Shown here piece by piece: positions 734-63,313 of a DNA stretch of 64,000 bases (the first letter of the stretch is position 1; each line of letters starts with the position of its first letter). The position numbers and the translations under genes were made by a program. Below the pieces are notes generated by a model, which was not told where the DNA came from, did no database searches, and was given only the letters and a program-made list of their open reading frames with translations. Location: NCBI RefSeq assembly GCF_030704535.1, contig NC_081819.1, positions 17,952,001 to 18,016,000 on the forward strand, in the 5' to 3' direction. Source of the DNA: Vitis vinifera. Taxonomy: Eukaryota; Streptophyta; Magnoliopsida; Vitales; Vitaceae.

Positions 734-3700
734 GGCCCTGGGGTGTCTGGTGCTGAGGAACTTGCAGAGGTAAAAAAGTTGCTTCAAAATGAAATTCATC
801 TAAGAAAAGCTGCTGAAGAGGAGGTTGACTATCTTAAGAATCGGTTAGGGCAATTTACACAGCCAGAGGTATTGTTTTGACATGAATTATGAAGTATATT
901 TGTATCCACATTTTTTAAAAAATTTTTAGAATAGGTGGTATATAAGGATTCTTTGGGTGCACTAGGCAGGTGGAAATTCAGAGATTCTAAAGCTCCGCAA
1001 AAGTCTTGAGGATGAAGCTCACAAAAAAAAGAAGCTTGAAGAAGAAATAACAATACTACAAAGTCAGCTGTTGCAATTAACATTTGAAGCTGATCGGGTA
1101 TTTTTTTTCAAGTTCTATTTGTTATTCATACAATCTATGGTATCTTTTGAAATGGTATTTGAGCTTCTGATACTTCACATTCTTTTACCACAGGCTGAAA
1201 AGTGGCCAATAAAAATCTAGGGTTAGGTTAGTCATAATAACTAGGACAAAAAATGTGAGCAGATATCAGGAAAGGACACCTATATTTACCCAGACTCTTG
1301 CTTTCCCTCCTACAATTTCTTTCTTTTCTTAGTTATTTGAGGTGTCAACAGTACCTCTCCCTTCTAGACTACTAGTACTTAAATAGGCATGAGTTCAACT
1401 ATACCTTTCCCTTCTTAGGCCCCACCAGACAAGCATAAATACACTTGCAAAGGTTAACCCTATTTAACTTTCATTTTGTGTTCACAGATGAGAAGATGTC
1501 TTGAGAGAGGAGGATCTGGAAATGCTTTTACCGGTCTTGATTCTCTTATGTCTCAAGTTGGGCATTTGCACCTTAAAGATGCAGGAAATGGACAGAGGGC
1601 ATCGATTGCAACACTCTCTGAACAAGGTACTAAAATGTTCTGCATGAACTAATTTTACTTATACTATTCATTGCTCATAGTTTTCCTCTCCATAAATCTG
1701 ACAGTTGGATTGCAAAAGGTCTTGTCACTGCTTGAGTCAGAAGATGCTAATGTACGGATTCATGCTGTAAAAGTTGTGGCGAACCTAGCAGCTGAAGGTA
1801 GTTAATTCTTTCCTTGAGAGATTATGATTAGATATCTGCTCCTTCATACTGTGTATTTCTTGCTGTATTGCAAGCAAAATCTTGATCATCTTCATATGCT
1901 TGTATCGTTTTTGTTCTTGTTGGTGGTGGTGGTATGTTGAAAACACTGAGGGCAATCATATTTTAGGGAGCTGAAAGAGCTGTATAAAACATTGACTTTA
2001 TGGATGATAATGCTTATATTAAAACCAATCTATGCATGTAGCCTGTAATGTCAGTTGAACTGTGATCAATTCAAATAGAAAAATAACTCTTTTAAGTCTT
2101 AGTGGTTCATTGGCTGTATATGTTTGGTTTCTTCTATGAAGTCATGGTCCAGCTTTCAATCAAGTTCATGAATATTAGGAAGGAATATTGCTTGGCTAAC
2201 TATTGCCTACTATTTTTTTAACATTTTCTGAGAATGGTGTTGTGCATGCCATGTGATATGCAGAAGCCAATCAGGAAAAGATTGTAGAAGCTGGTGGTCT
2301 CTCTTCCTTGCTGATGCTTCTTAGAAGGTTTGAGGATGAAACTGTACGCAGGGTAGCAGCAGGTGCAATTGCCAATCTTGCAATGAATGGTAAATACTCG
2401 TGGGTATTATCAATCTTTGAAGGGCCTAGGATTCCTCTCTTTCTATTCTGGGATCCAATCTTGTGTCCAGTATAAATATCATTTTTGTGTGGTGACTTCT
2501 TTTTCTGACCTAGCAGAAGCCAATCAGGAACTCATTATGGTTGAAGGGGGAATTAGTTTGTTGTCAATGACGGCAGCTGAGGCTGAGGATCCTCAAACTC
2601 TACGCATGGTTGCTGGGGCCATTGCTAATCTATGTGGCAATGGTATGCTGCATTCTCTACTTTGCTTTCTCTGTTTCATTGTCATTTTTCTGTTACTCAT
2701 ATTATCAAGCTGCTGAGGAGGTTGCTATTTGTGTTGAATGAACCGGAAAGGATTCTTTGATGTCCAACAGGATGTGGAATATGTTAAACAGAATAAAGTT
2801 AAGTTGCATTAAATGAGAAGATAATGTCCTCAGCATTATTAGATAATCAGTTTATAATGATTGATTGCTTTCTCCGATGTCTTCAAATTTTTAGCTAAAA
2901 TCCCAGTGCATAATCGCTACTTTACTAAATATATTTCACTATTTTCATTTTCCTAGATTTTTGTTCACTGAAAACTTATTCTTAGTTTACTTCCTGAAGC
3001 TTTTAAGCAAAAGCAACAGAGTTTGAAAGAATCCATTAGGATTTTCTTGGTTAGGTCTTTTTGCCTCTGGGCCTGTTTTTCAAGTTCAGAGCAAGACCAG
3101 TTAGAATTCGGTCTTTATGATTCTTGTCATGGATGTTAGTCTCTTAATTCAATGACACTTTGTATCAAGGCTTAATGTAAAGCACTTGACCTTTTCCAGA
3201 TAAGCTACAGATGAAGCTGAGGTCTGAAGGTGGTATCAAGGCTTTGCTAGGAACAGTGAGATGTGGGCATCCAGATGTTCTCTCTCAAGTTGCACGTGGA
3301 ATTGCGAACTTTGCAAAATGCGAGTCTCGAGCATCTAGTCAAGGTAAGCATCTCTTTCAAATAAATATTTATATTGGGTATTTGAGTGTTGAAGCAACTT
3401 GGCATGTTGATGCATGCTTTATAATTATCATTTTAGGACTGCTTGGTAAATGGGTTGGTTTTTGATCCAAATATAATGAATGGTTTCATGAATTCATCAG
3501 CATTCAGTTACACTGTGTCATTGAATACTATTAATCTAGGATATTTAATTTGAAAGTGTTTGTTTCTGCAATTTTAATTAAACACATTACTATAATAATA
3601 TATTTGAACTGCACTTTTGTGCTTGTAATCCGCCTTGGTTGTTCCTTGACTCTCTTTTTTATGTTACTTCCTGTCTGCCTTCGATGCACTACTTCCTGTG

Positions 3701-4289
3701 TGCCTTTGATACACTATTTCTTTGGCGCTTGTTCATAATATTTGCATCATATTAATTAAAATATTACATCTTTACCAAAAAGGATCATTGGTTCATGTAT
3801 CCCAACTGCATCAAAAGTATACATGTATACATCTTGAGAGAGAACCATTTATGTCAAAATAGGTGTCACATCTTTGTGGTCCAGCCACTAATTTGCTACC
3901 CCTTTCTACAGGGACAAAAACTGGAAGATCTTTTCTGATAGAAGATGGTGCACTGCAATGGATTGTACAAAATGCCAACAATGAAGCATCACCAATAAGA
4001 CGCCACATCGAGCTTGCACTCTGCCACTTGGCTCAACATGGTAAGTGGACCTCAACCTTCCTGCTGAGAAAGCCTAAATTTTCTGGCAACATGTTCCTGA
4101 AGACAACTTTGAATCTTTTAATCTGCAGAAGTGAATGCAAAGGACATGATCAGTGGGGGTGCCCTCTGGGAGCTAGTGCGTATCTCACGGGACTGTTCTC
4201 GGGAGGATATTAGAAATCTTGCTCATCGGACTCTAACTTCCAGCCCCACCTTCCGATCTGAACTACGCAGGTTACGAATAGAGTTTTAA
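734..4289 (+). CDS. ARK2: Armadillo-repeat kinesin, C-terminal part (ARK2/KIN-UB type), 5'-truncated by window edge
   Basis: Plant-specific microtubule motor of the ungrouped KIN-U/ARK family, which has an N-terminal kinesin motor, coiled coil and C-terminal armadillo repeats; ARKs act on microtubule dynamics in root hairs and epidermal cells (family knowledge). Only the tail is here. Exons by GT-AG and phase: 734-868, 966-1097, 1488-1626, 1705-1797, 2264-2389, 2517-2642, 3200-3343, 3912-4040, 4129-4289. They encode 394 residues in frame to TAA. The first two exons are charged coiled coil (AEEEVDYLKNRL; KKKKLEEEITILQSQLLQL). ARM repeats follow, recognisable by VRIHAVKVVANLAAE, VRRVAAGAIANLAMN, LRMVAGAIANLCGN and VARGIANFAKCES. 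The C terminus reads SREDIRNLAHRTLTSSPTF, as in Arabidopsis ARK2/ARK3. The motor exons must lie upstream of position 1. Assignment to ARK2 rather than ARK3 rests on neighbouring genes (BIG and PPR). Confidence 0.93.
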
Positions 4290-7200
4290 TCCAATCCTTG
4301 ATGGGTTTCCTTGAATCATTTCTCCAGTCTCCAGCAGGCGGTAAACATCAATCAAAATTTTTGTCGAATCAAGGGGGCGTTGATCATTTGATCGGCTGGA
4401 TTCCTCTTGGAAGTTTTGTGTAAAGGACGCAGCGCTTGGGTTTGAAATTCCTTCGTCTTGTAGCTGAACGAATATCATCAGTCAGTCCCATGTATTCTTC
4501 AACCCCTATTCAGCTTTCTTAGTATCATTTTTGTATAAATTGATTTATTAAAGCAATGAAATTTATCATTCTTTTATCAAAAAGATGGACAATGCGTAAC
4601 ACCATGAATGCATTAAATTTGGTTGGAAAACTAATACTGAAAAAATCAAAAGGCTGATGTGATATTCTCTGGAGACGTGTTTAATTTGGGAGACATCCAA
4701 ACAACGAGTCCATTTCTTTTGAAGAAATCATACCCGCTTTTAACATATGATTATCTTGTGGATGACATTTTACATGACCAACATGTGTTTCCAAATTAAT
4801 ATTGCCATGTGAAGCACAATGCAGTTAAGAAAAGGAAATCGTCACACCAGTGTTTCTATGGATTCCACCTAATGAAGCTTCAAAAAGGCATAATAATTAA
4901 GATGGAAATTAGGAACCAAGTTGAAGGCTTAGGCGTGTGTGTGTATATAATTCAAGTAGGGCCAGCTTTGATGTGGCCTCACATCCCAGATTATTGTAGT
5001 ATTATAGTGGAGAAAAAGATGGAAGAAAATAATAAGTAGGGCACATTGTTCATGCCCCCTCTCCACCCACCACTTTCCTTGTTTTCCTTCTCAGATTTTC
5101 TCCGGGTGGCGGGGCTTTTGGAAATTATCAATTAATTGAATGCCACTAAAATCAAAGAACCAACCAATAAGTGTGCGTTGTTCCAGTTTAAAGAGTAGGA
5201 AGATGCCCTTTCCTTTTTCGTTGGACTCCAATGTTCGTAGCATGTCTTATCATCTGATTTTTTCTTTTTTTTTTTTAAAAAAAAATTAGGATTATCGGTA
5301 TAAAAGCTTAACATGAACAGTTTAAAAAACCTTTTATATAATTAACAGAAATTCATACGTATGAATAGAATCGTACATCATCTTTGATATTATTTTGTAA
5401 ACGTATCTATATGATTACAAAAAACCATTGCTCGTATATATAGTACTAGAAATTTTTTCCTTTGTATGATCATACGGTGTTATTTTAAGATAAGAGAGAT
5501 CAATTCATTCTTATTCATTAATATTTTTGTATCGTACTTTAGAATAAAAATATGAATAAAAAACTCATTTAAAAACGAAACTAAATTTTACTCTAACTAT
5601 TATTCATCCTCTTTCGCATTCTATTTCCATATACTAAACACACCCATTCTTATTTCCATATGCTAAACACACCCTCATCAAAGTCTGGATGTGAATTATG
5701 GGCCTTTTCTTGGGGGATAAGATCATGAGTATATCGTATGAAACATGAAAATTGATTAAAAACCAATGCATGAAGCCAATAAACTGAATTAAAGGGCCAG
5801 TTCCATGAAGAATGAGGGCATGAAAATTCTGATCAAGGACTCGTACAATTACTAGCTTGAATCACTCATGACAAAGAAAGTGAAAGAACCTGGTTTTCGA
5901 TTTTGAAATACTGGTTCAAAACTAGAATGCAATGGGATGGAGGGGGCACTGAGCTTTAAAAGTGATGAGTTTGGCAGCTCTTTTCCACAAGGAAAAGGAA
6001 GCAAAAGATTGGAATCTTAATATTTTATACACCCATAATCACTAGGATTGAAGTTCAAAAATTTTTTTTTGAGTGGTGTTCATGATGATGGACTAGAAAG
6101 GAGTCATGCAAAAATTCAAAACCTGCCAAAACAAAATTATCTCAAGCACAGGAGACTGTCTGCTCAATAATTACAACCATGGTGGACTACCATATCTAAG
6201 TCATGGATACTAATAATATTGTTTTAGGATGAAAACCTTTTCCATTTCAAGTTTGCAATCACAAACAGTAAAAGCCCACATGTCTGGCTAGATGTGTATG
6301 AAATTATTGGACTGCAATCAAATCAATAACATTGGATCATAGGATGACAGAAGTCCTAAGATTTTCTAGGAAAAAGATGAATTTAAGAATGAAAAGATGG
6401 GCATAGGAAAAAAACAACGAATTTAGAGCTGAAACCATATAAGTTGGTGTGTTTAATTAATTAGGAATAGACTGTAACTTCCATTTCAGAACTTTCCAAC
6501 TTAATTTAGCTATCCTAGGCAAGAATTGAGCACTTTTTAAGGAGGAGAGGGGTAAAGAACAAAAGAAGTCTGAGCAAACCCTAGAAAAGTAGAGAAGTTT
6601 CCTGCTAATATTCATCAAGAATGATCTCCAAAACCAACCAGAGATGATATGGACGAGTATAAAAACCATGTAAGAACACAAGTCAGAGGAAAAGAAGTTC
6701 AGAAATTAGGTATTGGAGTGGAGTTGAGTGCAGAGCAGCAGAGGTTGCTAGGGTTTTGAGGTAGCTAGAGGAGATGAATCCTGAATCCAGACAAAATGAT
6801 TTCTATATAACTTACCTCACTTTGTCAGTCATCTCCAACCCTTTACTTCTCTAACCCCGGAAAGAGATAGAAAGCGAGAGAGAGAGAGAGAGAGAGAGTA
6901 CATTTAACGCTTGAGCTCTGTCTGTTTGTCTTGGTTGTTGCCTTTATATGCAAGTATTGTTTGCCTCGAAAAGGAGCTTGTTCAGAGCAGCGCACGTGTA
7001 AGCCAGTACCCAATGCTCATGTCTGCTCTCCCATAATAATAAAACCCTAAAACATTCAAAAAATAAAATAAAATAAAAAGAAAACAAGGTAGCAAGAAAA
7101 CCCTATGCCCATACCTCCCAATCCATCACCCATTTGCATGAAGTACAGGTTTTGCCACCTCTCTCTCCTCCCCCACTCATCTTGAAAAAACAGTCACTAA

Positions 7201-7913: not shown

Positions 7914-8816
7914 CTAATAGGGTGGGCGAGCAGTTCCCCAATAGGCCTCAGCAGGTAATTGGCATGAATTGAGAAGATTTGGAGGTAACCCTTGAAAAAG
8001 AGATGCGTTAGGATCTGGCAAAAGCTGTTGCTGCTGCTGCTGCTGTTGCGGCTGTTGTCCCACCATTCCCGGAGATCCAAGAGGGCCGCTTCCGGGAATC
8101 GGAACCTGCGGCTCTTCATCCTCCAGAGGAAGCCTCTCGTATGCGGCATTACCAAATGAAGCAGCCATGATTACCACTGGACCCGAGGCTAGTAGCGGCC
8201 CAACCACGCTACCACCCACCACCTGCCCCTGTCCGCCGGCCAGGTATATGGTTAGCCCCGACGCAGCGGGCGGTGCTGGAGGGGGTAGAAAAGAGCCGGA
8301 GAGCGATAAGATCTCAAATCTTCCGTGTAAGGTCACAACTGCACCGGGGGAAGCGGGTTGCCTTAGAGTGACATTGGTCACAGTTCCGCTGCCGCTTAAA
8401 ATGCAAATCCCCCTCTGTCGCCGCCGAGCAAAGGTGTTTAGACTGTCCATGATATCGCATCCGGTGGCAATTTCCATGACATGGGATCGGAGGGCGTTGG
8501 CACTGTCTCGTGTTATAATGATGGGAGGTTTGGGCTTGTTCTTGGAGCCAGCTGGTCTGCCTCTAGGTCTTCTCGTGATCTCTCCATCGCCACTGGATGT
8601 GCCGAATTCTTTGCCGTCAATCGGACTAGTGTTGTTGGTGGCGTTACTTTCATCGCGATCACGCTTCTGTGCTCGGTTTAAGCTGCTGCTGCCACTTTGT
8701 TCATCTTCAGAATTGGCTTGTGGGTGGTGTTGATATTGGTGGTGGTGGTGCAGCTGAAGATCTCTGGTGTGGAAAGGAGGAGGAAGAGGACGACCATGGG
8801 CTGTAACTGGATCCAT
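7914..8816 (-). CDS. AHL22: AT-hook motif nuclear-localized protein (AHL22-type, clade A)
   Basis: DNA-binding nuclear protein that binds AT-rich DNA and matrix-attachment regions and forms AHL complexes through its PPC domain. Arabidopsis AHL22 represses FT and affects flowering and hypocotyl growth (family knowledge). The single exon encodes 300 residues. Visible features: His-rich N-terminus (H23-H31), one AT-hook at residues 82-98 ([17 protein letters not shown]), and a PPC/DUF296 domain at ~103-230 with the GRFEIL hexapeptide at 165-170. A run of eight glutamines follows at 257-264. The C-terminal block [19 protein letters not shown] matches AHL22 better than other AHLs I remember. One AT-hook, the GRFEIL PPC type and no intron fit clade A. 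The ATG at 8814-8816 gives MDPV, the usual start of this subgroup. Confidence 0.95.
8030..8056 (-). repeat. Glutamine-codon repeat inside AHL22
   Basis: A CAG/CAA run encodes Gln 257-264 just after the PPC domain. CAG triplets are mostly uninterrupted, so length polymorphism between accessions would be expected. Confidence 0.85.
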
Positions 8817-9197: not shown

Positions 9198-9207
9198 TAG
9201 AGAGAGA

Positions 9208-9241
<34 letters not shown>

Positions 9242-9253
9242 GAAGGAGAGGGT
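9198..9253. repeat. (GA)n with embedded (GACA)n
   Basis: Purine-rich simple repeat about 0.4 kb upstream of the AHL22 start codon, probably in its leader or proximal promoter. Confidence 0.85.

Positions 9254-12076: not shown

Positions 12077-12080
<4 letters not shown>

Positions 12081-12106
<26 letters not shown>
12081..12106. repeat. (TA)n microsatellite
   Basis: Uninterrupted AT dinucleotides, 26 bases, in AT-rich intergenic DNA. Confidence 0.9.
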
Positions 12107-22742: not shown

Positions 22743-23357
22743 TCATATAGCTTTAGTACTAGCACATCCTGTCATCATTGATCTAAATTCTTCAAAATCA
22801 ACAAACCCATCGCCATCTTTGTCGACTCCCTTAATCATACGTTTACACTCTTGGAGGCTGCACTTAACGCATCCAAGGCTGATTAGAACACGCTGCAACT
22901 CTTCCGCGGATATCACTCCATTCTTGTCAGAATCGAAAATCAGAAAAGCATCCATCAGACCATCATCACAGGTGCTGCTGCTACCAACTGTGAAGTCAGT
23001 ATTCATGACGCGCATGAACTCGTCCAAGTCGATGAACCCATCCCCGTTGCAGTCCACTTCTCTGACCATGCCTTCAGCTTCCTCGACGGCTGTGGACTTC
23101 TCCTGTCCTAGCCACAGGAGTACTTCACTGAGCTCGAAGGAGGATATTTTGCCATCCCCATTTGTGTCAAGGAGCCTGAATACTTGTTTCAGCTGGTTGG
23201 ATACTTCCATAGCAGTGAAAGACGAGGTTAACAAATCAAAACCCGAAAACAATCTCTTATGCTGTCTTCGCTTGCATCGATGGAACTTGTCCAAGACCCT
23301 GACTTGCTGAAGAACGGTTCTAGCAGCAGCAACAGGCCATTTGAAGCAAGTCAACAT
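22743..23357 (-). CDS. Calmodulin-like protein with four EF-hands and N-terminal extension
   Basis: Calcium sensor of the plant CML family. The single exon encodes 204 residues. Four canonical 12-residue EF-hand loops are visible: D64-E75 (DTNGDGKISSFE), D102-E113 (DCNGDGFIDLDE), D142-E153 (DSDKNGVISAEE) and D179-E190 (DKDGDGFVDFEE). All have acidic first and glutamate twelfth residues, so all should bind Ca2+. The core starts about residue 50 (MEVSNQLKQVF). The first 49 residues are basic and hydrophobic (WPVAAARTVLQQV, CKRRQHKR) and may be a targeting or membrane-associating segment. Either M1 (23357) or M50 could be the start; I chose M1 because the longer frame is intact and such extensions occur in CMLs. 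The CML number cannot be assigned. Confidence 0.93.
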   Translation of the reverse strand: MLTCFKWPVAAARTVLQQVRVLDKFHRCKRRQHKRLFSGFDLLTSSFTAMEVSNQLKQVFRLLDTNGDGKISSFELSEVLLWLGQEKSTAVEEAEGMVREVDCNGDGFIDLDEFMRVMNTDFTVGSSSTCDDGLMDAFLIFDSDKNGVISAEELQRVLISLGCVKCSLQECKRMIKGVDKDGDGFVDFEEFRSMMTGCASTKAI

Positions 23358-25207: not shown

Positions 25208-28200
25208 TCAACATGACCTTAGCAAAACAGGACCCACTGACGAGCGCAGCATTTCACTAAGGGCTACCTGAACCTCATTTGACCCATGTTCACAGCCTAT
25301 TAAACTGGAAAGTAGTGGGAAGAACTGAGCCAAGTTCCTCTCAAATGATGTGTCTCCCAAACCACAAACAGCCTGGAGAGTTACCACAACAAGAGGTGCA
25401 CGGGTAGCCAATTCCCTTCGTTTCCCAGAACCCAAAGGGATCAGCCATCTGGGCTGCACACCTAGAGATGATTCGGGTATCTGTCCTGAGCGTGCAGTTT
25501 CAACATAGAATTGTAGGACCTCATGGCAAAGGTCAACCAGGTAGGACTCCACTTCAGCCTCTTCATAACTCGGAGGTCTGTCCAGTATAAGATTCTGTAA
25601 GAGTGTGAGGCAAATCTGGTAGGACTCATTCTCAAGGCGTAATAATGGGGGATCTTGCATCTGTGTCATGGACCCTAGCTCCTGTAGCTTTGATCTTAGT
25701 ATGGTATTGCTGTTTATCTTGTGAGCATGGGATGCCACATCATGCATCGCATTGAAGAGGACTATGATATTTTTTGCTGAAAGTCGAGGCCTATACATGT
25801 TGTAGATCTCCATAACCGCCTGTCAAATTTAATTAGAGAGTTTATATTCATGTTGAGAAAATTGAAACAGTAACATAAATCGTAATGCGGTAAAATTGAA
25901 ATATATAGTATAGCTAGTAAGATATTCTCTCCTTGGATCATTACAAGTTTCTCCAAAATTCAAATAAATATTTATAAGGCTAAAAAAGACCAACTTATTA
26001 TGAATGTCAGACCTTTATTCCTGTCATTCTCATTCAGGAGGCTTCTTATCACTTCACTCATTTCATCAAAAGCATCTTGCCCAGGAGTTCTATCGATATT
26101 ATTCTTGTCTTTGTTTGTAAGGATCTAACTCCAGAATAAAAAATGTCTTACAATGAACTTGACACCATTTGGCTTACCCCAATAAGCCAATATGTATACC
26201 TTCTAACTAGGTAATAAAGCATAAAATTAGCGAGCTCAGACATAATTGGCAAGCTAACAGAACATGCCTAGGGGTGGCAATTCATGTTGGTGGGTTGTGT
26301 TAAAGTTCAAGTAGTTAACTAAATAGATTAACCCAAACACGACACAAATAATAATTAGGTTAGAAACAGAAACTCAAGTACTGTTTAATTATTTAACAGG
26401 AAACATGTCATCTAACTCATTTAACCCATTTAATAATCAAGTCATATTTAATAATTAAGTCAAGTCTTTCATGAGTTTATATGATTAACCTCTCAACTTG
26501 ACATGTTTATAACTCAATTGATCTATTTATTCAAAATCAAATTTTAAATGAGTAATATATGAATTAAATAGATTAGAATTATAATGAGCTAATCAACGTG
26601 ATTATTAAATAGGTAAAAATTCGGGTCAAATTCATGCTACATAGGTTGATCCAAAAAACAACCAATTTATAAAATAGGTTACATAGGTCAACAAGAATTT
26701 GACCCAAACACGATTACACTTAACCCAAACCCACAAAAAATGTGTTGGCTTCGAGTCATGTTGGTGAATCGTATCAAACTTTTCCACCCCTAAACATGTC
26801 ATACATATTTGCTATAAATTCATCATAGGAAAAAGGACATAACATCCAAAAAAAGAAACCTACCTGAATCAGTAAAAGCTGAACAGCAGCTCGGCACTTG
26901 GCATCAGAAACAGCAGCATAAAGACGGTGTGACTTCAGACCCTCTGAATCATCATCAGTAGTACCAGACCCAGCAGACTCCCCATTACTTTGCCTACTTG
27001 AAGATTCTTCAAGATTCTGGACCATGCCGTCTCCATTAACAATATAGGAGAAATCCGGAAGTGTTGCATTGGCTGCTTCTTTTAATGACAAAACCACTTC
27101 TAGCCATTTTTCATCAGAAAAGAGATCCCCAGCACTACTCATCAAACGGACAAATGCAGCAATTCCAATACCAGCAAGGCTTTGGTGAGGACGCTTGATG
27201 AAACTAACCAACAGCATCATCACTTTCCTCAAAAGTGGATTGACAGTATCATAAAATTTAACAAAAAGATCTACAACTAATTGGAGGGCCAATGTGCATG
27301 TCTCATAAAGCCATGCATCTTGATCAAGCTCACCACTGTCACCATCAAGCTGCCCAGACATGTTCCCCCCAGAAGGATCAATAGCATGCCGAACATAGTC
27401 AAATATTGGAAAAAGGACTGATTCAAACACTCTTTCCCACAGAGGAAGAGAGAAATGATGACCATGGTTGCGTAAAGTGTCAAACAGCACTTGTAGGGCA
27501 CTCTTTCTGATTTCAGGCCTTGGGTCAAAGCTCAGTTCTGACAGCCCTGCACAGAGAAAAGACAGAAAGTATCTGATTATAAAGAACAAAAAGAAAAAGG
27601 CAAATGACTGAAGATTTCATACAGCATGTGTACTCAAGTCCAAAGAACAGGTGCATTAAAAGGTATTAAGCATGTAATCCAGTTTGAAAACTTGAGCTAT
27701 ACAGAAAAATGCTTTCTACCATGCAAATGCCAATTTATGCATTTTCTTTACCAGCCAACAGGGGGAACCAAAAATAGAGATGATCATCCCTGTCTGTCAA
27801 CTCTCCATTGTCATGTTTCCGATCTTTTCCTGCTTGAGGTGAAGATGGAGTAATTTTCCCAGGAGCTTCCTTGTCTCTGTTCCTTGATGAGGAGCCAAGA
27901 TCACCTTCTGCAAGTTTTGCCGCACAGAACCGAAGAAAAGCAATAGCATTCAGACTAATCTCTTTGTTGAATCTACTATTAGTGAATGCAATTAGGCAAT
28001 TTACACAATCAGTGAATGTCGTGGTCTCAGTTTCAGTAATGTAGGGGAAGTAGTCTCGCACAATCTTCTCAATTATTTCAAAGGCCAGGAGTACTATGTT
28101 TTTATGATCATCATAAGCTGCTGTTGTGAAGACCTGAAAAAAATATTCACATTAATAATCTGTTAACATAGCCATTCACCAAATAAAATCAATGATGAAA

Positions 28201-37200: not shown

Positions 37201-40200
37201 ATAATAAATGTACTTTTATAAAATTCATATTTTTTTATTGACGCATACGATATTATTATCAAATATGATAAAGTATATCATACATATATCAAATTTTTTA
37301 ACATAACAACTTTAAAATGTCTACTATACTTCCAATTACATTGTTATGATATTTTTCTTACATTTTCATGAGTTTTGATCAATTTTTGGTTAACCAAAAA
37401 ATTTTTCCAAAATATCTATTGATATATCTCCGATATATCCGTAAAATCAAAGTATCAATATATCCGTGATTACCGATATTTTCATCAAAGGTTGGTAGGG
37501 TGGTTTGTTTTCGCTTTTCCCTTGCTTCCCTTTTCTCCCTAGCTAGCCTTTTGGCCTTTTTTGTATACTTTGTGTGTACTTTGTTGCACCATTTTGTCAA
37601 CATTTTTTAATATATTCTATCATTTACCTATAAAAAAAAAATCCCTACTTTTTGTACCTTCACAAAATGATTTTTTTTTCCTGATAAACAACAAGAGCAT
37701 GTATTAAGAAGCACCAAAAAGAGGTGTATAAAGGCTATAAACACAAAACATCACAACACAAGCACCAAACAAATACAAGGTTAGCCTATAAAAACAAGCC
37801 AAGTTATCCACAAGGAAGAGCATCTGAGAAATCCAAATAGAGGGGTTCTTTATTTCTAATGGACCATGAGGCCACTCTAATAATAATTTAATTAAGAACT
37901 TCTTCATTCTTTGATCTACGAGCTCTTCCTCATTGGAAGTCCTTCAATTACATTATTTCCAAATATACCAAAATAAGCAAATTGTTTTTAAAAATAGTTT
38001 TCTACTCTTAAAAACATAAAATTGTTATCTAGATTCAAAAACACATTCAGTAATTTCTTGATAGGAAACATATTTTTGAGAACTTATTTTGAAACAAGCG
38101 GTCTTTTTTAGAACATATTTTAATTGTTTTCAATTGTTTTACTTTTTTTTTTAATAAATTGTTTTCACTTGTTTTCGTTTGTTTTCTAGTGGACTGTTTT
38201 AAAATATGATTGTACAAATATGGAAAATTATTGAAAATAAAATACCATGAATAAAAGTTATTTTTAAGAATATTTGGAAATACAAAAAACAGGTTGAGAA
38301 CATTCAAAGTTCCCAAACAAATTTCTGATCTAGAACACATCAAAGAACTGTTTTTGAAAACATTCCCAATCAGGCCACAGTATCTTCTATCATTCTCTAA
38401 TATAACTAAGAACAAGTAACGACCAGCTTCCTTTTGATGCATTTCAATCTTGAACCATCTGTCATAGTCCTTCATTTCTCCCTTAATCAGTTTTTCCCCC
38501 TCCACTTACACTAGAGATCAAGGGTCTCCCAAAGCCATCCTAATACCCCTCTTTTCATCTTCATCCATCTCTGATAGCCTTCACCTCTTTCCACCATCAG
38601 CACCCCTACTTGCCCCTTTACCCATATGGAGCGAAGCTCAAAGGACTTAGAATCAGTAATGATCACCATCATGCTCTCCATACTCTCTCTAATGCAAATT
38701 TAAGATCCTAAACTGTCTTATCCAGAAATGTGGTATATTTTGTTTGTTTCCCTTTCAACAACCTGATCTTTCACCTGCTATGTTTCTTTTATTGCTCTCA
38801 AGAGCTTTCATTTTCTATCAAAATCAAAACAAAAAATAAAGGAAAAAACTCCTTAGAGACCTAAAGGGTCCCATTTTTGCCAATGCACAACCATCATATT
38901 ACCATCAATGTATTGAAGATGATCCACAAAAACCTACCCATCAAAAGCTTATAGATTCAATACCTTTCATAATATATCATGTATTTACATGCCCTATATA
39001 ATAGGCATTTTTATTGCTAAAAGCAATCATATTAAAAGCGCCTACCAAAGGGTGCGCAAAAGTATACACGGTGTATACAAGGCGCCTAAGGCCAAAAAAG
39101 AAGAAGGATACACAAAAAAACAACTCCTTACAACTCAATCAAACAATAAAAGAGGTTGATTACAATAGTAGATTTGCAAGACTTTAAGATAAGATTCAAC
39201 AAACCAAGACTTCTCCATGTCTGTGAACATATCTAAAGGATTCATTTTTCCACCTTAATAGCTTCTCTACAACATGAAGATTAAAACAAATCAATGAACA
39301 TTTTCCACATATGACATCTAAAAACAGCAATAAACCTAACATAACCAAGATCAGCCAAAAGTCCTCATTTCTAACTAACAAACTACCTATCATTCCAGTA
39401 AACCAACAGGCATCAGCCTCCCTTAAAATTCCTCAAAGACAAAAAAATCTTTTCCATACAAAACCTTGTTGCAAGTTTCTTTGTGAAAATTCTACTTCTA
39501 TCAGCCCAAATGCAGAATTACCAGCACCTCCTGAAAAATAGAATACCATCTTATTTTCTTTGGGTGGAGTGTAGAACATCAATTTAAGGAAGGGAACTAT
39601 CTACTTAATTTCTGCCAAAAAAATGCACTCTTCCAAATAGCATAGGCTAAAAGGCAATTATCGAAGATTTCAGGAGGTTGTAACCTGGCTCACTTGACTT
39701 CTAGCACAAAGTGCAAAGGGAAAGGCACTTCTAGCACAAAATTCAGAGGGAAAGGCATTAGTAAATTCTCATTTCTCTAGAGCATTTCATTAAAAGTCAC
39801 CTTCCTATGGAAACTCTGATTAAACCAAATGTTATCCCTGTATATGAACCTTGGATTTCATAAACAAATTCAAGGAAAAAGAAAGTTCATGCCAGGAACT
39901 TTGATTACAAAATAGCAAGTTTCCCAAAGAATCAGAACAACACATAGAAAGAGAAATTCAAGACTGCACACAGAAGCTTCAAACTTTGTAGCATAACGAT
40001 TTAGCTAAGTGCAAAGACAAATATTAACTAATCTCTAGGTTAAAGATCTAACTGAGAAGTCAAAGACAAATGTTAACTATTCTTAGTTGACCAAAAGGCA
40101 GCTCTGTTCATGCAGCCTCTCATTCACAGTGAGATAATTCAATAATCATAAAGTTGGATTCATTAGTGCATATCTACTCTAAAGAGAAACAAGCTAACTG

Positions 40201-40586
40201 CTAAATGGAGCCATAATGCACCAAGGATATTTCTAGATCAAAACAGCACACTGTTATCTGTCACCATTGCATCTAACTCCACCTAGCAACTTTGGCTACT
40301 TTTTACATGAACTAGGTCAATAAATTTATCCTTACATTTCACTACCTGCCCACCATTTGCCTTTACCTCCTCAGAGCCAAATTGTTGATTGCTCTCAGCA
40401 ACTTTTTGCTCCCCTTGAACCCAATCTCCCCACTCCCATGATAACGTGCTAACCAAAAGAAATAACTTCAGAACAAACTGATATATGCCCAAGAACCCAG
40501 AAATGAGAGTATGCTAGTACATTGACAAACGACAGGATTATCTTTTTCTTTCTTTCTTTCTTTCTTTTTTTTTTTTTTTTGATAAG

Positions 40587-40619
<33 letters not shown>

Positions 40620-42366
40620 AACAAACAAAAAGGATTTACAGAAAGAGATACAACAAAAGCACACCAAAGTACATAGGAAGTATGCAAAGGATACTAATCA
40701 AATAAGGTTGACAAACAACAGGTCAAATCTTCAAATCTTAAGATTCCCATTTAATTCCTAAAATGGCTGATGTTAAATAACGCAAACAAAACATTGAGGA
40801 CTTTTGATTATGCCAAGATTTTCCCATATGTAATCTCTACATTTATTTCATCCAGAGGAGGAATTAGATCAACAATAATACATATATAATTACATACTTG
40901 TAAAAAATATTGATGTGCAGGCTATAAGTTGAGCGAGAATACATATACAATTATGTACTCCTAGAAAAAAGTATTGAAGCATAGGCTGCTGCTTCTCAAT
41001 GGTTTAAAGGACCACACTCATCACAAATTTAACAATAAACTATTGAGAATTGTCAAACAGAGGAAATTCACGTACAACTAGAGAATTGAAGGCTAAATAA
41101 AAACCCTAAAATGCAATCTATAAGCATAAAGGACAAAAGCCACGGAAATTTTCAAAGGATAGAGCCATAGTTAAGATTAACAAACCTTTCACTGGTCCTA
41201 AAGATAGCACCAGCATTCTCCAACAAAATCTTTAATAACTCCAAAGCCACTATCTTCCCTCGCATCAATTGAGGATCTGCCAAGGCCTCCTTGGGAGGCG
41301 TCTTCATGGAAAGCTTACATAGCGCCCTAAACACCAAAAAAGCATCCCTCCGCAACTTATTTCCAATCTGAACTTCCAATTCATCATCTCTCTCCCCCTG
41401 AATGTCTGCCAACTCACCTTTCCTCCCTTCCAATGCTGTCTTATACATACTGATCTCCCAATACTTAGCATCCAACATATCCTTATCTGTTGAATCCAAC
41501 AAATCAGCGGGATTCGTCGTCTCCACTGTCGTAGTCTCGAACGCCCCATCATGGGCGCCCATTGCCCCCTTCCCTGGTGTCGCTGGATTCAAAACCACGT
41601 CAATGTCCTGCATAATCTTGGTGATAAATCCCTGTACAAACTGAGTCATGGAGCTGTCCGCATCCGATTTTTCTATCGGTTCCATCAGCTCCGCCACTAC
41701 GATTGGTTGAATCGGAACAGTGGACGAGTCCGCCTCCATTCTCCTGAACACAATCACCAGCATTTGAATCAACGATGCCTTGGCCGTAGTTTGATTGACA
41801 ACGTTCTTGCTCCCCAAGTAAATATCATAACAAGTCCTCACAATCTGCAACAAGCAATCTCCATGAATTCTCAGCGACATGGACGTAACCGCCGATAACA
41901 GAGTCTTCAACACCGAAAGCTCAACTCCATCGTCGCCCAAATCGTGACATTTACACACTGATTCAATCAATTTCGCAAGGAGATTTGATTCGGGGCCGCC
42001 GGAAGGGTCGGCCTCGCCACGTACGTAGCCGTGCACGATCAACTTCTGAAAGCAGTCGAGGGCCGGATCGGCGATCTTGAGGACACCAGAGGAGGCAGCG
42101 GCAATGAGCGGATTGAGAATGGATTCGGACTCGGCGAGTGAGTAATGAAACGGGCCGCTATGAAGCGGTCCGGGAACGGAGGCTTCGGCATCATCGGAGT
42201 CACCGTCGGCGGTGAGGGACTTCTCAGGAGAAGTGATTCGTTCGAGAACGAATTTACACTCATTGACGAGCTTCGAGTGCTTGCGCCAGGAGCCGTTCTT
42301 GATGATCTTCTCTAGGGCTGGAGAAATGACTTGTCCTAAGCGGGAATCGGCTTCCGAAGAAGCCAT
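25208..42366 (-). CDS. BIG2: Large ARF guanine-nucleotide exchange factor, BIG2/BIG3 type, 11 exons, complete
   Basis: Sec7-domain ARF-GEF that activates ARF GTPases at the trans-Golgi for post-Golgi and vacuolar traffic (family knowledge). Exons in transcript order: 42366-41186, 33810-33493, 33289-32944, 32848-32426, 32324-32032, 31594-31321, 29238-28733, 28600-28279, 28133-27752, 27546-26864, 25819-25208. They sum to 5340 bases and 1779 residues with every phase closing; Arabidopsis BIG proteins are of similar length. N-terminal DCB region in exon 1 ([19 protein letters not shown]). The HUS box NYDCD is at 487-491. The Sec7 domain spans ~605-800 with [12 protein letters not shown] (catalytic glutamate finger E705). 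Y739, S740, D747 and M757 are the residues linked to brefeldin A sensitivity. HDS domains follow, ending [15 protein letters not shown]. Intron 1 is 7375 bases and full of transposon debris. It cannot be split into BIG2 versus BIG3 from sequence alone. Confidence 0.95.
26279..26792. mobile_element. hAT-like MITE in BIG intron 10, 514 bp
   Basis: The ends TAGGGGTGG and CCACCCCTA are perfect 9-base inverted repeats, extended by further subterminal similarity (CATGTTGGTG on one side and its complement on the other). The 8-base flanks AACATGCC (26271-26278) and AACATGTC (26793-26800) differ at one base, typical of a hAT target duplication. The interior repeats AACCCATTTAA and GGTTGATCC-type motifs and has no coding potential. 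Confidence 0.8.
30190..30360. repeat. Degenerate minisatellite, unit about AGCAGTATGTTWAGTAGT
   Basis: The phrase CAGTATGTTTAGT or CAGTATGTTAAGT recurs near 30196, 30217, 30259 and 30315, with decayed variants (AAGTATGGTCAGTGGT, CACTGTATGTTTAGTAGT) between and after. Unit length is irregular. It is intronic and non-coding. Confidence 0.6.
30811..31037. mobile_element. TRIM/copia-like relic with primer-binding site
   Basis: The 12 bases TGGTATCAGAGC at 30875-30886 exactly match the complement of the 3' end of initiator tRNA-Met, the copia/TRIM primer-binding site, and are preceded by an LTR-like end ...GCTCAACA. A second copy of the preceding segment lies downstream: AATATACATT...ATTACCTAATAGCTTAGG at about 30811 versus AATATACATT...ATTACCTAAAAGCTTAAG at about 30980, roughly 44 of 56 bases alike. 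A TGTTAG, the usual LTR start, sits at 30955. The short span between the repeats suggests a terminal-repeat retrotransposon in miniature, old and eroded. Confidence 0.55.
34150..34290 (-). mobile_element. LINE 3' tail (minus orientation)
   Basis: Read on the minus strand it is ...GTATACAACCTATGTACTTC... followed by ...AATACACTCTCTTATTTAT and an A-tract. This resembles the 3' end of plant L1-type LINEs in this window (compare 37560-37640, plus strand). Only the tail is evident; 5' truncation is usual for LINEs. Confidence 0.5.
35270..36519 (+). pseudogene. L1-type LINE remnant, ORF fragments before the endonuclease
   Basis: Broken open frames on the plus strand (about 35511-35708, 35711-35917, 35927-36361) read as one degraded retroelement protein interrupted by stops and shifts. 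Its end, [23 protein letters not shown], recalls the linker before the endonuclease of grape and other plant L1 LINEs (from memory). No endonuclease or reverse transcriptase follows. After the inserted element at 36520-37490 the LINE resumes only as a 3' tail. Confidence 0.55.
36520..37490. mobile_element. hAT-like element, 971 bp, nested in the LINE remnant
   Basis: An exact 8-base direct repeat GTTGGTAG flanks it (36512-36519 and 37491-37498). The ends CATGGATGAAAATTTCGG and CCGATATTTTCATCAAAG are imperfect inverted repeats. Subterminal repeats of AAAATCGGC / CCGATATAT type are also present. There is no transposase frame. A tRNA-like segment lies inside at 36771-36845. Confidence 0.75.
36771..36845 (-). 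repeat. tRNA-like / SINE-like segment
   Basis: On the minus strand, TAGTCCAATGGTGAGTGGG resembles a polymerase III A box region, and GGGTTTGAGTC about 55 bases later resembles a B box (GGTTCGANTCC). It lacks a full cloverleaf, so it is not a tRNA gene; a tRNA-derived SINE head is possible. Confidence 0.35.
37499..37645 (+). mobile_element. LINE 3' tail, plus orientation, with poly(A)
   Basis: TTTTGTATACTTTGTGTGTA...AATATATTCTATCATTTACC followed by TATAAAAAAAAAA is the typical 3' end of plant L1 LINEs. With 35270-36519 it forms one internally deleted LINE split by the hAT-like insertion. Confidence 0.6.
39006..39115 (-). mobile_element. LINE 3' tail (minus orientation)
   Basis: On the minus strand: GGCGCCTTGTATACACCGTG, then GCGCCTTTAATATGATTG and a short A-rich end. 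It matches the tail style of other LINE ends in this intron. Heavily truncated. Confidence 0.5.
40549..40690 (-). mobile_element. LINE 3' tail (minus orientation) with long T/A tail and (TA)n
   Basis: On the plus strand a (TTTC)n/T20 tract precedes GATAAGCACG, a (TA)n tract (40593-40619) and AAGTACATAGGAAGTATGC. Reversed, this is a LINE tail ending CTTATC plus poly(A). The (TA)n tract expanded inside it. Confidence 0.5.
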
Positions 42367-45562: not shown

Positions 45563-48500
45563 ATGGGTTCTTTTGCTTGTATTATGCTGTCTAATTCATA
45601 CCCAAAGTGTTCATTCGGTGATGAAATTACAAACACCCTAAACTGCCATTTCCCAGAAAAGTTTTTCTTTCAGACACCAGTTAATGTTGGCCATTCCAGG
45701 TTAAATTTTGGACCAGTATTGGTTGGAAGCAATGTAGAAGAGAAGGGAACAGTAGAGATGGGAGAAGGGGAGAAGAAGAGGTATAAGTGGATTGAGATAG
45801 GCCCTAATATTACAGAAGCCCAAAAAATGACCATATCTCAAATCTCGCTGAAGATGACCAAGAGATGTAAGGCCCTAGTGAAACAGATTATATGCTTCTC
45901 CCCTGAAGAGAGAAGTTTATCTGATTTGTTGGCTGCATGGGTGAAGATCATGAAGCCAAGGAGAGCTGACTGGCTCTCAGTTCTTAAAGAACTGGGGAGG
46001 TTGGATCATCCATTGCTCCTTGAGGTGAATTGTTTCCTTGTTAGTTGCAAATTCCTATTGAATGAATATAGCTTAGTTAGTTTTTAGTTGAGCTTTTCTC
46101 TTTCTAAATGGTAATTGAAGTTTTTAACATTATATTCTCGCCTGTATATTGTGTTTGGCTTTCCATTTGAACATTATGATTGCTGTTTGGTGAACTTCCA
46201 TCGCTGCACCAAAACCACGATACCGTTGTGCACTGTATGTGGTACAAGTTTTATCCTATGTTAGTTGGATTCTCTTTTCAGAGTTTGAGTTGCTTGTATC
46301 CATTACTTGAATTCATCTCTATTTTACATGAAATTTGATTAAGGAATACGTATTGTCCTTTTCTTGTTAAGAAACCTATTATCCAGTTCATCATTTATCC
46401 ATATGGTTCTTTCATGTATATACACATACCTAAACTTATAAATTATATTTAGAAAATTAACAAATTTCCACACGCACCATTGAACTATCCTTTTGTTGAC
46501 TTAGAGAGCTGTTGTTTCCAAAACCCTGTTCTTCATGGTGGAGTACCAATCCAGTGTCTGTTGAATAAATTACGACTTTTTTTTCATTGTTTATGGAAAC
46601 AATTACCCATTTCCCCAATATCTTTTGGCGATGTTCAATTTTGTGATGGGACACAATTGAGCATTCCTGTCCATCATGTTTTTATCCATACCTTTTTCTT
46701 GTCTGCATGTTTCCTAATCTCATATCTATAAAAATGGCAGCACCTATTATTTCTTTCTGCTTCTGCCCCGCTATTAATAATTGCAATTGATTATTTCAAT
46801 CATTATTGGATGGATCAGGTTATCTGAGAGGTCCTGTTCATTAAGAGTATATTGTTAGACTAAATAATTCCCTAAGGTTTTGATTGTTTTTGGACGAGAA
46901 CACTTTCATGAACAAACGCATCTCATAATTATATTGTCAAATTCAGTCATTTGGTTTCTTGCCTAGCAGTAACTGGTACAATAAGTTTGTATTTCATAAT
47001 TCCTGATATGCTGGACTTATTTTGTGGATCGCTTCTTCTTTGTTTCAGGCTTCAAGATCTTGTAATTCAGTCTAGGTGGTCCAAACAATGTACATGCCCT
47101 TTAGTACTTTAGGAGAGTCATATGATGGAATCCAGCTTCGATTCCTTGTTAGGGTGTTTGAAATGCTGTCGAAGGACAGACAAGCTTCTCTATCAGCTAT
47201 GGGTAGTTCTATACCTTTTGGTGGTTCCTCATTGCCACTTTCATTCATCTACCATGTCTAATTCCATCTCTGGGCCCTCATGATTCTAAGCATCATTTAG
47301 TCTATGATATTCCCCCAGTTTTGTTCTCTTTCCTCACCTTCCTTCAATTCTCACATTCTTCTACCAGTAGGCTTTCTGTCAGGTTTTATATGTTTGCCAC
47401 TGAATCAACATGACTTCTTACTACACCAAGGGCAGCAACTGACTTTTTTAAACCCACAGAATAAATTAAAATAAAAACCGGAGTTTTTCCCCTCCCAAAG
47501 GGCCTCTCGAATCTGACATGGCTGTTTAAGAACATGGGTTTTATCTGAAGGGCCACTGGAACATATAATTTTAATTGCAACACTCTACAATTATAAATGA
47601 CTTGATTACCCATCCTCCGCCCTGTATGAGTTGACAGTTCAAAAACCATGTCTTCAATTAACACTAGAAATGTACATGCCAACTTTACATTCGAATTCAT
47701 TACCTTTTATGCTTCACCTATCTGCTCACCTTTCCATGCAATTTCTTTCTGCCTTCAAACTAACAACCAATTTTTACTCCTGGATTAAAAGAAATATTCA
47801 AGTTCTTTTGGAAGTTTACCAGTTGGGAGGCTGGTTCCTCTTTATTCTGTGGCTAAGGTCTTTGACAATAGCTTGTTTGCCTTATTCTTCATTCATCCAT
47901 AGAATGCAGATATCCCTACTCATTAGGGGCTTAATGTGGTTAAGCGAACTGCCATTGTAGAGAGTTTGACATCTCACAGTTTGGAAGCTTGTTCCACCTG
48001 GGGTGTCCCTGTTAAGTAATTAAAAAACATCAAACTGCTCATTCTTGTCTTTGGAATGGGAAGGAGAGTATTTGGAATTGTGAATTCACTGAAATCCTTG
48101 TTAAATCTTTATTCTAAAGGAGAAGATTGATAAGCCTGTAACAGCCATGGTTTTTTTCCATGCTCATCTTCTGTAATATTCGGCCTCCTATTATTCCTAA
48201 GACATCTGGACTTCTTTGGATTTAATCATACTGAGGTGTCTTGTCTGGTGGTAAATACGATGTGCAATTGCAAACAAGGACTTAGGCAGAATTGGTCTAT
48301 ATGGATCATTTGAGCAATGTGCTTATTTTTACTCATTTCTTCACTAGCATTTTTATTTTAAAAATTTTTGTTAGTTGACTATTTTTCTGTTTCACATGAA
48401 TAAGGTCTCACAGTGCCATTGAGCTGCATTAGCTTCTGCTTATATGTGAATTGATGTTTTATCCTTCTTTTATTTCAAGTTTCTGAAAATTTCCAAGAAC

Positions 48501-49817
48501 TAGTTCTACTTCCATAGGTGGTTGATGCTGTACCAAAGAGCAAGTTATACATGCAAAACAGGATATTAGAATGTGTTTCTAGAAGATGCAAATGATTAAC
48601 ATTTCAAAACCAAAAGTTGTTAGAAATATGCACAACTTTGGCAGTAAATCTCAGGGATGCTTGGCAATCTATGAATAAGTTTTCCATGAAACATTTTTGT
48701 TTTCAACTAAACAATGTTCATGAAGAGAATACTTTAGTATTTTTGCATAGCGACACACTTTTTCATGATAGTTTTGGAACTATGAACTTGGGCCTAGAGA
48801 CATCTAAGCAGCAGGTAAGGATTCAGGTTTTCATCCCCAAATGATTGGGACATATAGCTTTATGTTGATATTCATGAGGTGTATTCCAAGATCAATATCT
48901 AATAGATGGAGCTTTGAAAGTACTAAATTCTTCTGAAATAACTTTTTGTTTATTCAAATGAAATACTTTGTATTATTTACCTCTTACTACCTGAACTGAA
49001 GTCATTTTATTGGTGCTTCGATTAGGTGGCAGAACTGGCCCTCCTAGAAGAATCTTTTGAAGCCAACATTCGAGACTATACCAAGATAATTGATGGTTAT
49101 GGAAAGCAAAACAGGCTGCAGGATGCCGAAAATACCCTATCAGCCATGAAAAGAAGAGGCTTCATCTGTGATCAAGTAACCCTGACTGCCATGATTAACA
49201 TGTATAGCAAGGCTGGAAACCTTGAGCTAGCTGAAAAAACATTTGAAGAGATCAAGCTGCTTGGCCACCCATTGGATAAAAGGTCCTATGGTTCAATGAT
49301 AATGGCCTATATCAGAGCTGGAATGCCTGATCAGGGAGAGATTTTAGTGAAAGAAATGGAGGCCAAAGAAATTTATGCTGGAAGGGAAGTTTACAAGGCA
49401 TTGTTAAGAGCATATTCCAATACCAGTGATGCTGAAGGGGCTCAAAGGGTCTTTGATGCTATTCAATTTGCGGGTATTTCTCCTGATGTTAAGCTGTGTG
49501 CTCTCCTTATAAATGCCTATCGAGTTGCAGGTCAAACTCAAAAGGCCCATGTTGCATTTGAAAATATGAGGAGATCTGGTCTCAAACCTAATGATAAATC
49601 TATTGCACTGATGTTGGCTGCATACGAAAAGGAGAACAAGCTTAACAAGGCATTGGACTTTTTGATAGATTTGGAAAGAGATGGTATTGTTCTTGGGAAA
49701 GAAGCTTCAGAACTACTGGCCGCCTGGTTTCAGAGGCTAGGGGTGGTGAAAGAGGTGGAACTTGTACTAAGAGAATATTCTGCAAAGGAAGCCAGTTGTG
49801 AAGTTCACCCTTCCTAG
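45563..49817 (+). CDS. Pentatricopeptide repeat protein, P class (At1g01970-like), two exons
   Basis: RNA-binding PPR proteins act on organellar transcripts; the target of this one is unknown. Exons 45563-46024 and 49026-49817 encode 417 residues; the intron (3001 bases) is phase 0, between LLE and VAEL. I chose the first ATG, 45563 (MGSFACIM), because the frame upstream has no ATG. Six 35-residue PPR motifs lie at about 170-203, 204-238, 239-273, 274-308, 309-343 and 344-378, e.g. LTAMINMYSKAGNLELAEKTF. The conserved pre-PPR block WVKIMKPRRADWLSVLKEL is in exon 1. No E or DYW tail, so it is not an editing-type PPR. The N terminus could be organelle-targeting but is not a clear transit peptide. 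Similarity to At1g01970 is from memory and agrees with gene order next to BIG. Confidence 0.92.
46025..49025 (+). other. Large intron of the PPR gene
   Basis: Donor GTGAATTG and acceptor GATTAG. Open frames inside are short and show no PPR motif or other domain, and joining the flanking exons gives a continuous family-like protein, so I place no exon here. Confidence 0.8.
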
Positions 49818-60850: not shown

Positions 60851-63313
60851 ATGACTGGAAGCAAGGGAGATGGTGGTGGGCCATGCGGTGCCTGCAAGTT
60901 TCTTCGGAGAAAGTGCGTGAAAGGCTGTGTTTTTGCTCCTTACTTTGACTCCGACCAGGGCACCGCCCACTTCGCGGCCGTGCACAAGGTGTTTGGTGCC
61001 AGCAACGCTTCCAAGCTTCTTACCGGGATTCCCGCTCACAAGCGGCTCGACGCGGTGGTTACTCTCTGCTACGAGGCTCTGGCTAGGCTTAGAGACCCTG
61101 TCTATGGCTGTGTTGCTCATGTTTTCACTCTCCAACAACAGGTATATTTCTGGGTTTCTTTCTATTGCTAACTTGCGCCGGGGCTGTTTGGAGTTTTGGG
61201 TTGTTGGTCCGGCTCACCGTCCAGTGGAGACGTGGAATTTGTAACACCCTTTTTTGGTATATGGTTTATGGACTATAGTGGGTCTGAAAAAAATGGGTTG
61301 AGGAGTGCTACGCTAACGTGCGCCTAAGTCTGGTAGTTTTAAGCAGTGATGACTTTACAAATCAACTCCAGGGTCTAACCTTTCGTTAGGAAGTTTTAGG
61401 TGTCAGCTCTCAGTTCGTCTTCTTCATCCTCCTCTTATCTTGTTCTTTCCTTCTTTTTTATTTTTTACTACAAATGACGGTATGCTAAACATGAAGATGA
61501 CAACCATGCATGCTAACTGAGCTAGGTACGGTGTATAATTGATCGAAGTGGGTACGTGGATTCTCGGGAGACCTGTAGAATTAAATCCAACAAGAAAAAC
61601 TATTTACTTTAAATCATGAATTTGAAAAAAAAAAAAAAAAAAAACTGAGATGTCATGCTAACATGCGCCTGTCTGGGTTAACACAGTAAGCCAAGCTTTT
61701 CCCCTTTTTAGATTAGGGTTTGTGAATTTCTATTTTGTGTTCTCATATGCGTATCCATGTTAACATGCACCACGCCAATAGTTATGGGTTGCAAGTTTGC
61801 AACCATCAAATAAAGCATTCAGTCAAGGCCCCTGAACTTCTTCCTTTTGGAAATTCAGCTTTTATTTGATGGTTCTTGGGTAGTCAATCTTTTTCCACCA
61901 AAAAGGATTAGGGTTTCCACTTTCCACTCTTGGTCTACCCTCGGTTTTCCCAAAGAAAATAGTGGGAAAACTCATGCTAACACACGCTGGGACGAGTCAC
62001 CGAGACAGAAAGAGCCGCCATATGTTAGTGGTTGTGGGTCTTGTTGCTTGCCGGAGCCACCAAGCAAACTTGGCAGCTCGAGGATTATTCAAGTGTTTGT
62101 AGTTTTGACTTCTGCGAAGAGATCCAAATAAAGTAATACTACTGTATTTATCCCCTATATATATATATGTACTGTGAATCAGCAAGTGGGTGACCGTGCG
62201 AAAGAGTTGTCTTCTGTCATAGGGAAAAAAAATAGTAGCCATATTCATAGCTTGAACAAGGCATAGATGGTTGGTTGACTGGTTCATCCAAATATAGTAA
62301 TGCTACTGTATTTATCGCCTATATATATATACTGTGAATCAGCAAGTGGGTGAGTGTGCAAAAGAGTTAGTCTTCTTTGATAGGGGAAAAAAATAGTAGC
62401 CATATTCATAGTTTGAAGAAGGCATAGGCGGTTGGTTCCTCTTCCAATTAATATGATAGCTAGGAATGATTTCCCGAGAAAAGTTTATATATATATATAA
62501 AAGATATTTGAATTATTAGATCGGTTTTGATCATTTTATCTAAAAACCTTTTATGATATTCGACATCACATCACACTAGCGTACTCTAAGAGCCATCATT
62601 TGGGTGACTCGTCTCAGGTTTAAGAAGGGCATTATTGCGTCCCAACATGTGTAAACTCTCCTCTTAATCATATAGACTCTTAACCATATAAACGTGTTTA
62701 ATACCCCTATTATAAGGATGACATAGTTGTTCCCAGTTGCCCAGCAATTTCAGACATGCTGGGGTTTCATGGCAGACCAAGCTGAAAAAGCGTCCTCCAT
62801 GTTTCATGGTCTGTCCAAATCGGTGCCCTCACTCCATTATAATATATAGCACAGTTTTAGACCTTTTCGAAAGGACGTAGTCACCATTTGAAAATTGAAA
62901 CTATAAAGAGGTAGCTGTGCTTACAGTTATATTATAGCAAATTAATAGTCTTAAGTCTTATTACCTATCAGCAAGCTAGGGCAATGACTGACTGATAATG
63001 GTTTGGTTTGTGATTACAGGTTATGAATTTGCAGGCGGAGTTGGCCTTCATTCAGGCCCGTCTTTCGACCTTGCAGCGCATTCCTTCTCTGGCACCGCCA
63101 CCCCTACTGCCTGAAAGTGCACCGCAGCCCAATCTTCAGTCTGACTTTTTTAATGTTCCTCTACAATCACACGAGGCGTCGATGGAAGCTGCGGACTTCT
63201 GTAATAATTCAATGGACAGAGAGCTCGAGGATGGTGATCTCCAAACCCTAGCTCAAGAATTTGTCTCTAGATTCTTGCCCGGAGTAAAAGTCCGGGATTC
63301 GAGTTCTAACTAA
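60851..63313 (+). CDS. LBD19: LOB-domain transcription factor, LBD19-type (class I)
   Basis: Second LOB-domain DNA-binding factor. Exons 60851-61141 and 63020-63313, phase-0 intron after LQQQ, 194 residues. The frame runs on upstream but has no ATG before 60851 ([10 protein letters not shown]), so that is the start. LOB domain: C12-C15-C22-C26 ([16 protein letters not shown]), GAS block to S51, and zipper L94-L101-L105-L112. The exon 2 block [20 protein letters not shown] and the C-terminal [17 protein letters not shown] resemble Arabidopsis LBD19/LBD31. LBD19-type genes are developmental regulators; the exact role here is unknown. It is divergent to the LBD18-type gene, and their LOB domains are closely similar, so they are local paralogues. 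Confidence 0.93.
61142..63019 (+). other. Intron of LBD19-type gene, 1878 bases
   Basis: GTATAT...TTACAG. Contains an A20 homopolymer near 61625-61644, several copies of a GCTAACATGCGCC-like motif, and a ~164-bp tandem duplication (62124-62438). No internal coding exon recognised. Confidence 0.85.
62124..62438. repeat. Tandem duplication, unit about 164 bp
   Basis: Copy 1 from CCAAATAAAGTAATACTACT (62124), copy 2 from CCAAATATAGTAATGCTACT (62288). Both contain CTGTGAATCAGCAAGTGGG and AATAGTAGCCATATTCATAG. They differ by scattered substitutions and small indels, so the duplication is not brand new. Confidence 0.88.

Follow-up and report, generated by a model that had tools for sequence, protein, structure and literature searches.

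One 64 kb segment of the grape genome as a probable counterpart of four differently thinned regions of the Arabidopsis genome

The arrangement of genes in a 64,000-base stretch of Vitis vinifera contig NC_081819.1 (positions 17,952,001 to 18,016,000 of the forward strand; the whole of this stretch is hereafter the window) raises the question of whether a single grape segment keeps, in one run, genes that in Arabidopsis are divided among four chromosomes. From left to right the window carries the C-terminal part of an armadillo-repeat kinesin (ARM-kinesin) gene (+), an AHL gene (-), a CML gene (-), a BIG gene (-), a PPR gene (+), an LBD18-type gene (-) and an LBD19-type gene (+). The explanation favoured here, with a probability of roughly 0.85, is that one grape segment which did not undergo the beta and alpha duplications stands against four Arabidopsis copies, each thinned in a different way.

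The seven gene types and their order had been proposed in a first-pass annotation made from the letters alone, and both were borne out by Pfam domains together with the joined open reading frames (ORFs) of the kinesin. Six of the seven types were identified by Pfam directly, and the ARM-kinesin only after its ORF pieces were joined. The two left-end kinesin ORFs scanned singly gave no Pfam match, whereas the joined pieces contain the C-terminal armadillo repeats of the ARK group (PF00514) and also match solved armadillo structures; the motor domain would lie outside the window, upstream of base 1. The BIG gene contains all four domains that mark membership of the BIG ARF-GEFs, namely DCB (E 4.6e-37), HUS (E 9.2e-12), Sec7 (E 2e-64) and the BIG C-terminal domain (BIG2_C, E 5.8e-41).

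The window is very probably a segment of Vitis chromosome 15, as judged from the size, mass and EF-hands of the CML, the strands and spacing of the LBD pair, and the order of locus numbers. The CML has a coding sequence of 615 nt and a protein of 204 aa and 22.89 kDa, with EF-hands in four stretches by Pfam and in three loops by a simple EF-hand loop pattern. The published VviCML109 (VIT_215s0048g00790.1) has 615 nt, 204 aa, 22.9 kDa and 4 EF-hands, and its V. amurensis counterpart, likewise of 615 nt and 204 aa, is 99% alike (PMC6963546). The two LBD genes of the window are divergent, with 7,487 bp from ATG to ATG and 11,496 bp from stop to stop. On grape chromosome 15 (PMC5698300), LBDIa3 lies at 14983081-14985200 on the minus strand and LBD19 at 14992229-14994929 on the plus strand, the gene bodies covering 11,849 bp in all with a gap of 7,028 bp; the strand pattern (-,+) is the same and the two layouts agree within a few hundred bases, as untranslated regions would allow. 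In the grape VIT_15s0048g locus series, 00780 is described as a 'DNA-binding protein' (PMC3923830), 00790 is the CML and 00830 is LBDIa3, and these numbers follow the order of the window. The 'DNA-binding protein' would suit the window AHL. The chromosome 15 region at approximately 00780-00830 shares with the window the length, mass and EF-hands of the CML, the strands and spacing of the LBD genes, and a CML that is numbered before LBDIa3.

Locus numbers in Arabidopsis follow chromosomal order, and published numbers or statements place relatives of the window genes side by side in four Arabidopsis regions, the one on chromosome 4 through its LBD pair alone. On chromosome 1, At1g01950, one of the Arabidopsis ARM-kinesins (with MRH2 and At1g12430; PMC2031828), adjoins BIG3 at At1g01960, and on chromosome 3, BIG2 at At3g60860 (both BIG loci from PMC6539719) adjoins AHL18 at At3G60870 (PMC7084884). 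In the passages of PMC3276173 that name them, At1g01950, At1g01960 and At1g01970 appear only as matches to bacterial artificial chromosome ends, which have no bearing on adjacency. LBD31 adjoins LBD30 and LBD19 adjoins LBD18, with LBD30 and LBD18 placed in older duplicated blocks (PMC2721968). In Brassica rapa, A04 and A05 each carry orthologs of both AT2G45410 and AT2G45420, approximately 10 kb apart or less, and A09 carries the orthologs of AT4G00210 and AT4G00220 within the same distance, with only the AT4G00220 ortholog shown on A02 (PMC10341433).

These data bear on four sets of Arabidopsis neighbours that the first-pass annotation had named. Its BIG2-AHL18 pair agrees with the published numbers. 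In its run ARK2-BIG3-PPR the first two genes are adjacent in print; At1g01970 is presumed here to be a PPR gene and the candidate counterpart of the window PPR, an identity that was found in no source. For its LBD19-LBD18-AHL22 run, the adjacency of the LBD pair and the locus of AHL22 are published, and the exact locus numbers of LBD18, LBD19, LBD30 and LBD31 are assumed. In its AHL7-LBD31-LBD30 run, the two LBD genes are published neighbours, but AHL7 belongs to clade B and is not the counterpart of the window AHL.

The exclusion of AHL7 turns on the clade of the window AHL. This protein has one RGRP core followed by GSKNK and a PPC domain that begins LRSH, has neither FTPH nor RKY, and is encoded by a single ORF. 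Clade A (Type I) AHL proteins are defined by RGR followed by GSKNK, a PPC domain starting LRSH and a gene with no intron (PMC8056045, PMC4209074). Because of its RGRP and GSKNK motifs, its LRSH start and its intronless gene, the window AHL is, by sequence, a member of clade A, and the clade-B features, a PPC domain starting FTPH and introns, were not found in it. AHL22 is AT2G45430, and AHL7 is AT4G00200, which belongs to clade B with AHL1-4 and AHL6, a clade whose PPC domain begins FTPH (PMC8056045); PMC6977275 swaps the clade letters, and its intronless group includes AHL22, its intron-bearing group AHL7. AHL7 as a copy of the window AHL is ruled out by this mismatch. By locus numbers that are in part assumed, AHL7 adjoins LBD31, the LBD19-like gene, whereas AHL22 adjoins LBD18, and AHL7 is also less likely as a fourth AHL copy because it stands on the opposite side of the LBD pair from AHL22. 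This leaves AHL22 and AHL18 as the candidates for the AHL copies of the block, and they are assumed from their position to be the nearest relatives of the window AHL within clade A. A clade-B AHL just to the right of the LBD19-type gene in grape, outside the window, would give AHL7 a different explanation.

Grape is not known to have undergone any whole-genome duplication after the hexaploidy common to core eudicots. Under the favoured explanation, the grape segment would have kept ARM-kinesin, AHL, CML, BIG, PPR, LBD18 and LBD19 in one run with no later duplication, and the Arabidopsis lineage would have duplicated its copy twice, at beta and then at alpha, with each of the four resulting copies losing different genes. 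Chromosome 1 would retain kinesin-BIG3-(PPR), chromosome 2 LBD19-LBD18-AHL22, chromosome 3 BIG2-AHL18 and chromosome 4 LBD31-LBD30. How the four segments divide between alpha and beta is assumed, as is the matching of each duplication to the pair that it made. Arabidopsis relatives of three further genes, SCL6, a CCA1-like gene and PRR9, presumably lie in or near the four regions. The grape locus series that holds the CML and LBDIa3 also includes SCL6 (00270; PMC3825586), a CCA1-like transcript (02410, printed as 'CAA1') and PRR9 (02540; PMC3923830). The grape LBD paper (PMC5698300) calls LBD18 the ortholog of grape LBDIa3. By the names in its table of 50 LBD genes, grape has one LBD18/19-type pair; Arabidopsis has two, a difference that favours duplication after the split of the two lineages over the older hexaploidy. 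The earlier claim of an unduplicated segment facing fractionated Arabidopsis segments is thus strengthened by the old-block duplicates LBD18 and LBD30, the single grape LBD pair and the chromosome 15 placement, and weakened by AHL7.

Several points weigh against this explanation. AHL7 does not fit the block, and with its exclusion the chromosome 4 segment is tied to the window by LBD30 and LBD31 only. Three of the six pairings of Arabidopsis segments (chromosomes 1 and 2, 1 and 4, and 3 and 4) share none of the seven genes, such that the window by itself does not establish the fourfold relation, which leans on wider synteny that is taken as known. The grape list gives no Arabidopsis name to a further gene of the same subclass, LBDIa6, which is next to LBD16 on grape chromosome 7 (PMC5698300), and a second LBD pair could have been lost in grape. 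Orthology throughout is inferred from names, locus numbers, sizes and domains rather than from alignment. Confidence in the favoured explanation is slightly lowered by two considerations, that the AHL subgroup is assumed from position and that half of the pairings have no gene in common.

The alternative that survives best, which is nonetheless unlikely, is that some of the Arabidopsis segments stem from the older hexaploidy (gamma) and are nearer to other grape chromosomes, in which case the window would map to two or three segments. It draws support from the placement of LBD18 and LBD30 only in 'older' blocks, which are not necessarily those of beta (PMC2721968), and from the reduction of the chromosome 4 link, once AHL7 is removed, to one LBD pair. 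However, it predicts a second LBD18/19-type pair on another grape chromosome unless that pair was lost, and the published list names one (PMC5698300).

Rather less probable again is a further reading in which the AHL22-type, BIG and LBD18/19-type genes have stayed closely linked beyond chance, through long-range regulatory elements situated between the genes. If this were true, elements that keep these developmental genes linked would reside in the 13.9 kb that separate AHL from CML and in the 7.5 kb interval between the LBD genes, and two Arabidopsis copies would have retained the LBD pair intact.

Chance adjacency was estimated from 3 ARM-kinesins, 4 BIG genes (BIG1-4), 42 LBD genes and 29 AHL genes, with 15 clade-A AHL genes and 27,000 genes overall as assumed inputs. 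On these after-the-fact figures, the expected number of chance neighbours is approximately 0.001 for BIG1-4 with an ARM-kinesin, 0.004 for BIG1-4 with a clade-A AHL, 0.05 for any LBD with a clade-A AHL and 0.09 for any LBD with any AHL, and the adjacency of AHL7 and LBD31 alone consequently means little. The least credible alternative is that the Arabidopsis neighbours came together by coincidence, their gene families being large. The LBD and AHL families are indeed large, and AHL7 may be a chance neighbour of this sort or else a different block member, but the kinesin-BIG and BIG-AHL adjacencies are each improbable and all lie within a single 64 kb window, and the figures jointly leave coincidence little room.

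Table 1. Genes identified in the window, with positions counted from its first base
Feature	Position	Strand	Evidence and correspondence
ARK-type armadillo-repeat kinesin, C-terminal part	707..4420	+	PF00514 Arm E 1.7e-16 on five joined ORF pieces; exon ends approximate
AHL, intronless, 300 aa, Type-I/clade A by sequence	7914..8816	-	PF03479 (PCC/PPC) E 1.9e-24
CML, 204 aa, four EF-hands	22743..23357	-	PF00036 in four stretches; corresponds to VviCML109
BIG-type ARF-GEF, many exons	25208..42366	-	DCB, HUS, Sec7, BIG2_C; exons partly modelled
PPR protein	45563..49817	+	PPR_2 E 1.4e-31 in ORF 49026-49817
LBD18/LBD30-type LOB gene, 2 exons, 251 aa	51818..53364	-	LOB E 2.2e-34; corresponds to Vitvi15g00735 (LBDIa3)
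LBD19/LBD31-type LOB gene, 2 exons, 194 aa	60851..63313	+	LOB E 8e-33; corresponds to Vitvi15g00736 (LBDIa2 LBD19)

Both LBD proteins contain the C-block CX2CX6CX3C and the leucine zipper LX6LX3LX6L, the two motifs that define class I (PMC5698300). The LOB exons at 53014-53295 and 60866-61147 form a 282-nt inverted repeat that is 79% complementary, and the two proteins are identical at 82 of 100 residues counted from the first LOB cysteine; this likeness would fit an old divergent local duplication. The splice model of the LBD19-type gene has an intron at 61142-63019, within which a 161-bp unit is tandemly duplicated at 62122-62437 (1.9 copies, 88% matches).

Among the remaining genes, the window CML has no assigned or named Arabidopsis counterpart in the proposed block. 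One BIG ORF, at 26774-27616, matches Mon2_C (E 2e-10), and a VipE match in one BIG ORF (E 0.083) is at chance level. The ORF at 45503-46087, which gave no Pfam match, probably supplies the first exon of the PPR gene.

The window contains no N, and its G+C content ranges from 23 to 41% in 4 kb steps. It holds 65 ORFs of at least 90 aa, of which 18 are wholly outside the seven gene spans, and none of these 18, all scanned with Pfam, reached a curated cut-off. Three gave matches below the cut-off with E under 0.1, to Rhabdo_matrix (E 0.085), Shadoo (E 0.033) and ABCC10_N (E 0.016), which were dismissed as chance, their scores being approximately half of the respective cut-offs. A tRNA search run with the bacterial code gave no hit in the window, and there was no Rfam match at the gathering score. 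The interval between AHL and CML (8817-22742; 13.9 kb, 32% G+C) is gene-poor, and none of the 12 ORFs of at least 90 aa wholly inside it, all of which were scanned, reached a Pfam cut-off. An intergenic inverted pair of 195 nt, 75% complementary, is present at 15650-15844 and 50437-50631 and could represent copies of a small transposable element.

Reading Arabidopsis segments against grape as an unduplicated reference is textbook practice, and the phenomenon seen here is of an ordinary kind that is, on that background, already known. The block opens no new question by itself; its value is as a clear case of duplicated copies losing different genes, readable in one 64 kb grape segment. As in the Arabidopsis pairs LBD18-LBD19 and LBD30-LBD31, an LBD18/30-type gene adjoins an LBD19/31-type gene in the window, but Arabidopsis has two such pairs and the window a single one, divergent and with 7.5 kb between the start codons. 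The window would be of the same kind as the synteny, taken here as known, of one grape segment with up to four Arabidopsis segments, with one grape run, interleaved losses and LBD duplicates in old blocks; particular to it are that chromosome 4 is represented by the LBD pair only and that the CML has no assigned Arabidopsis copy.

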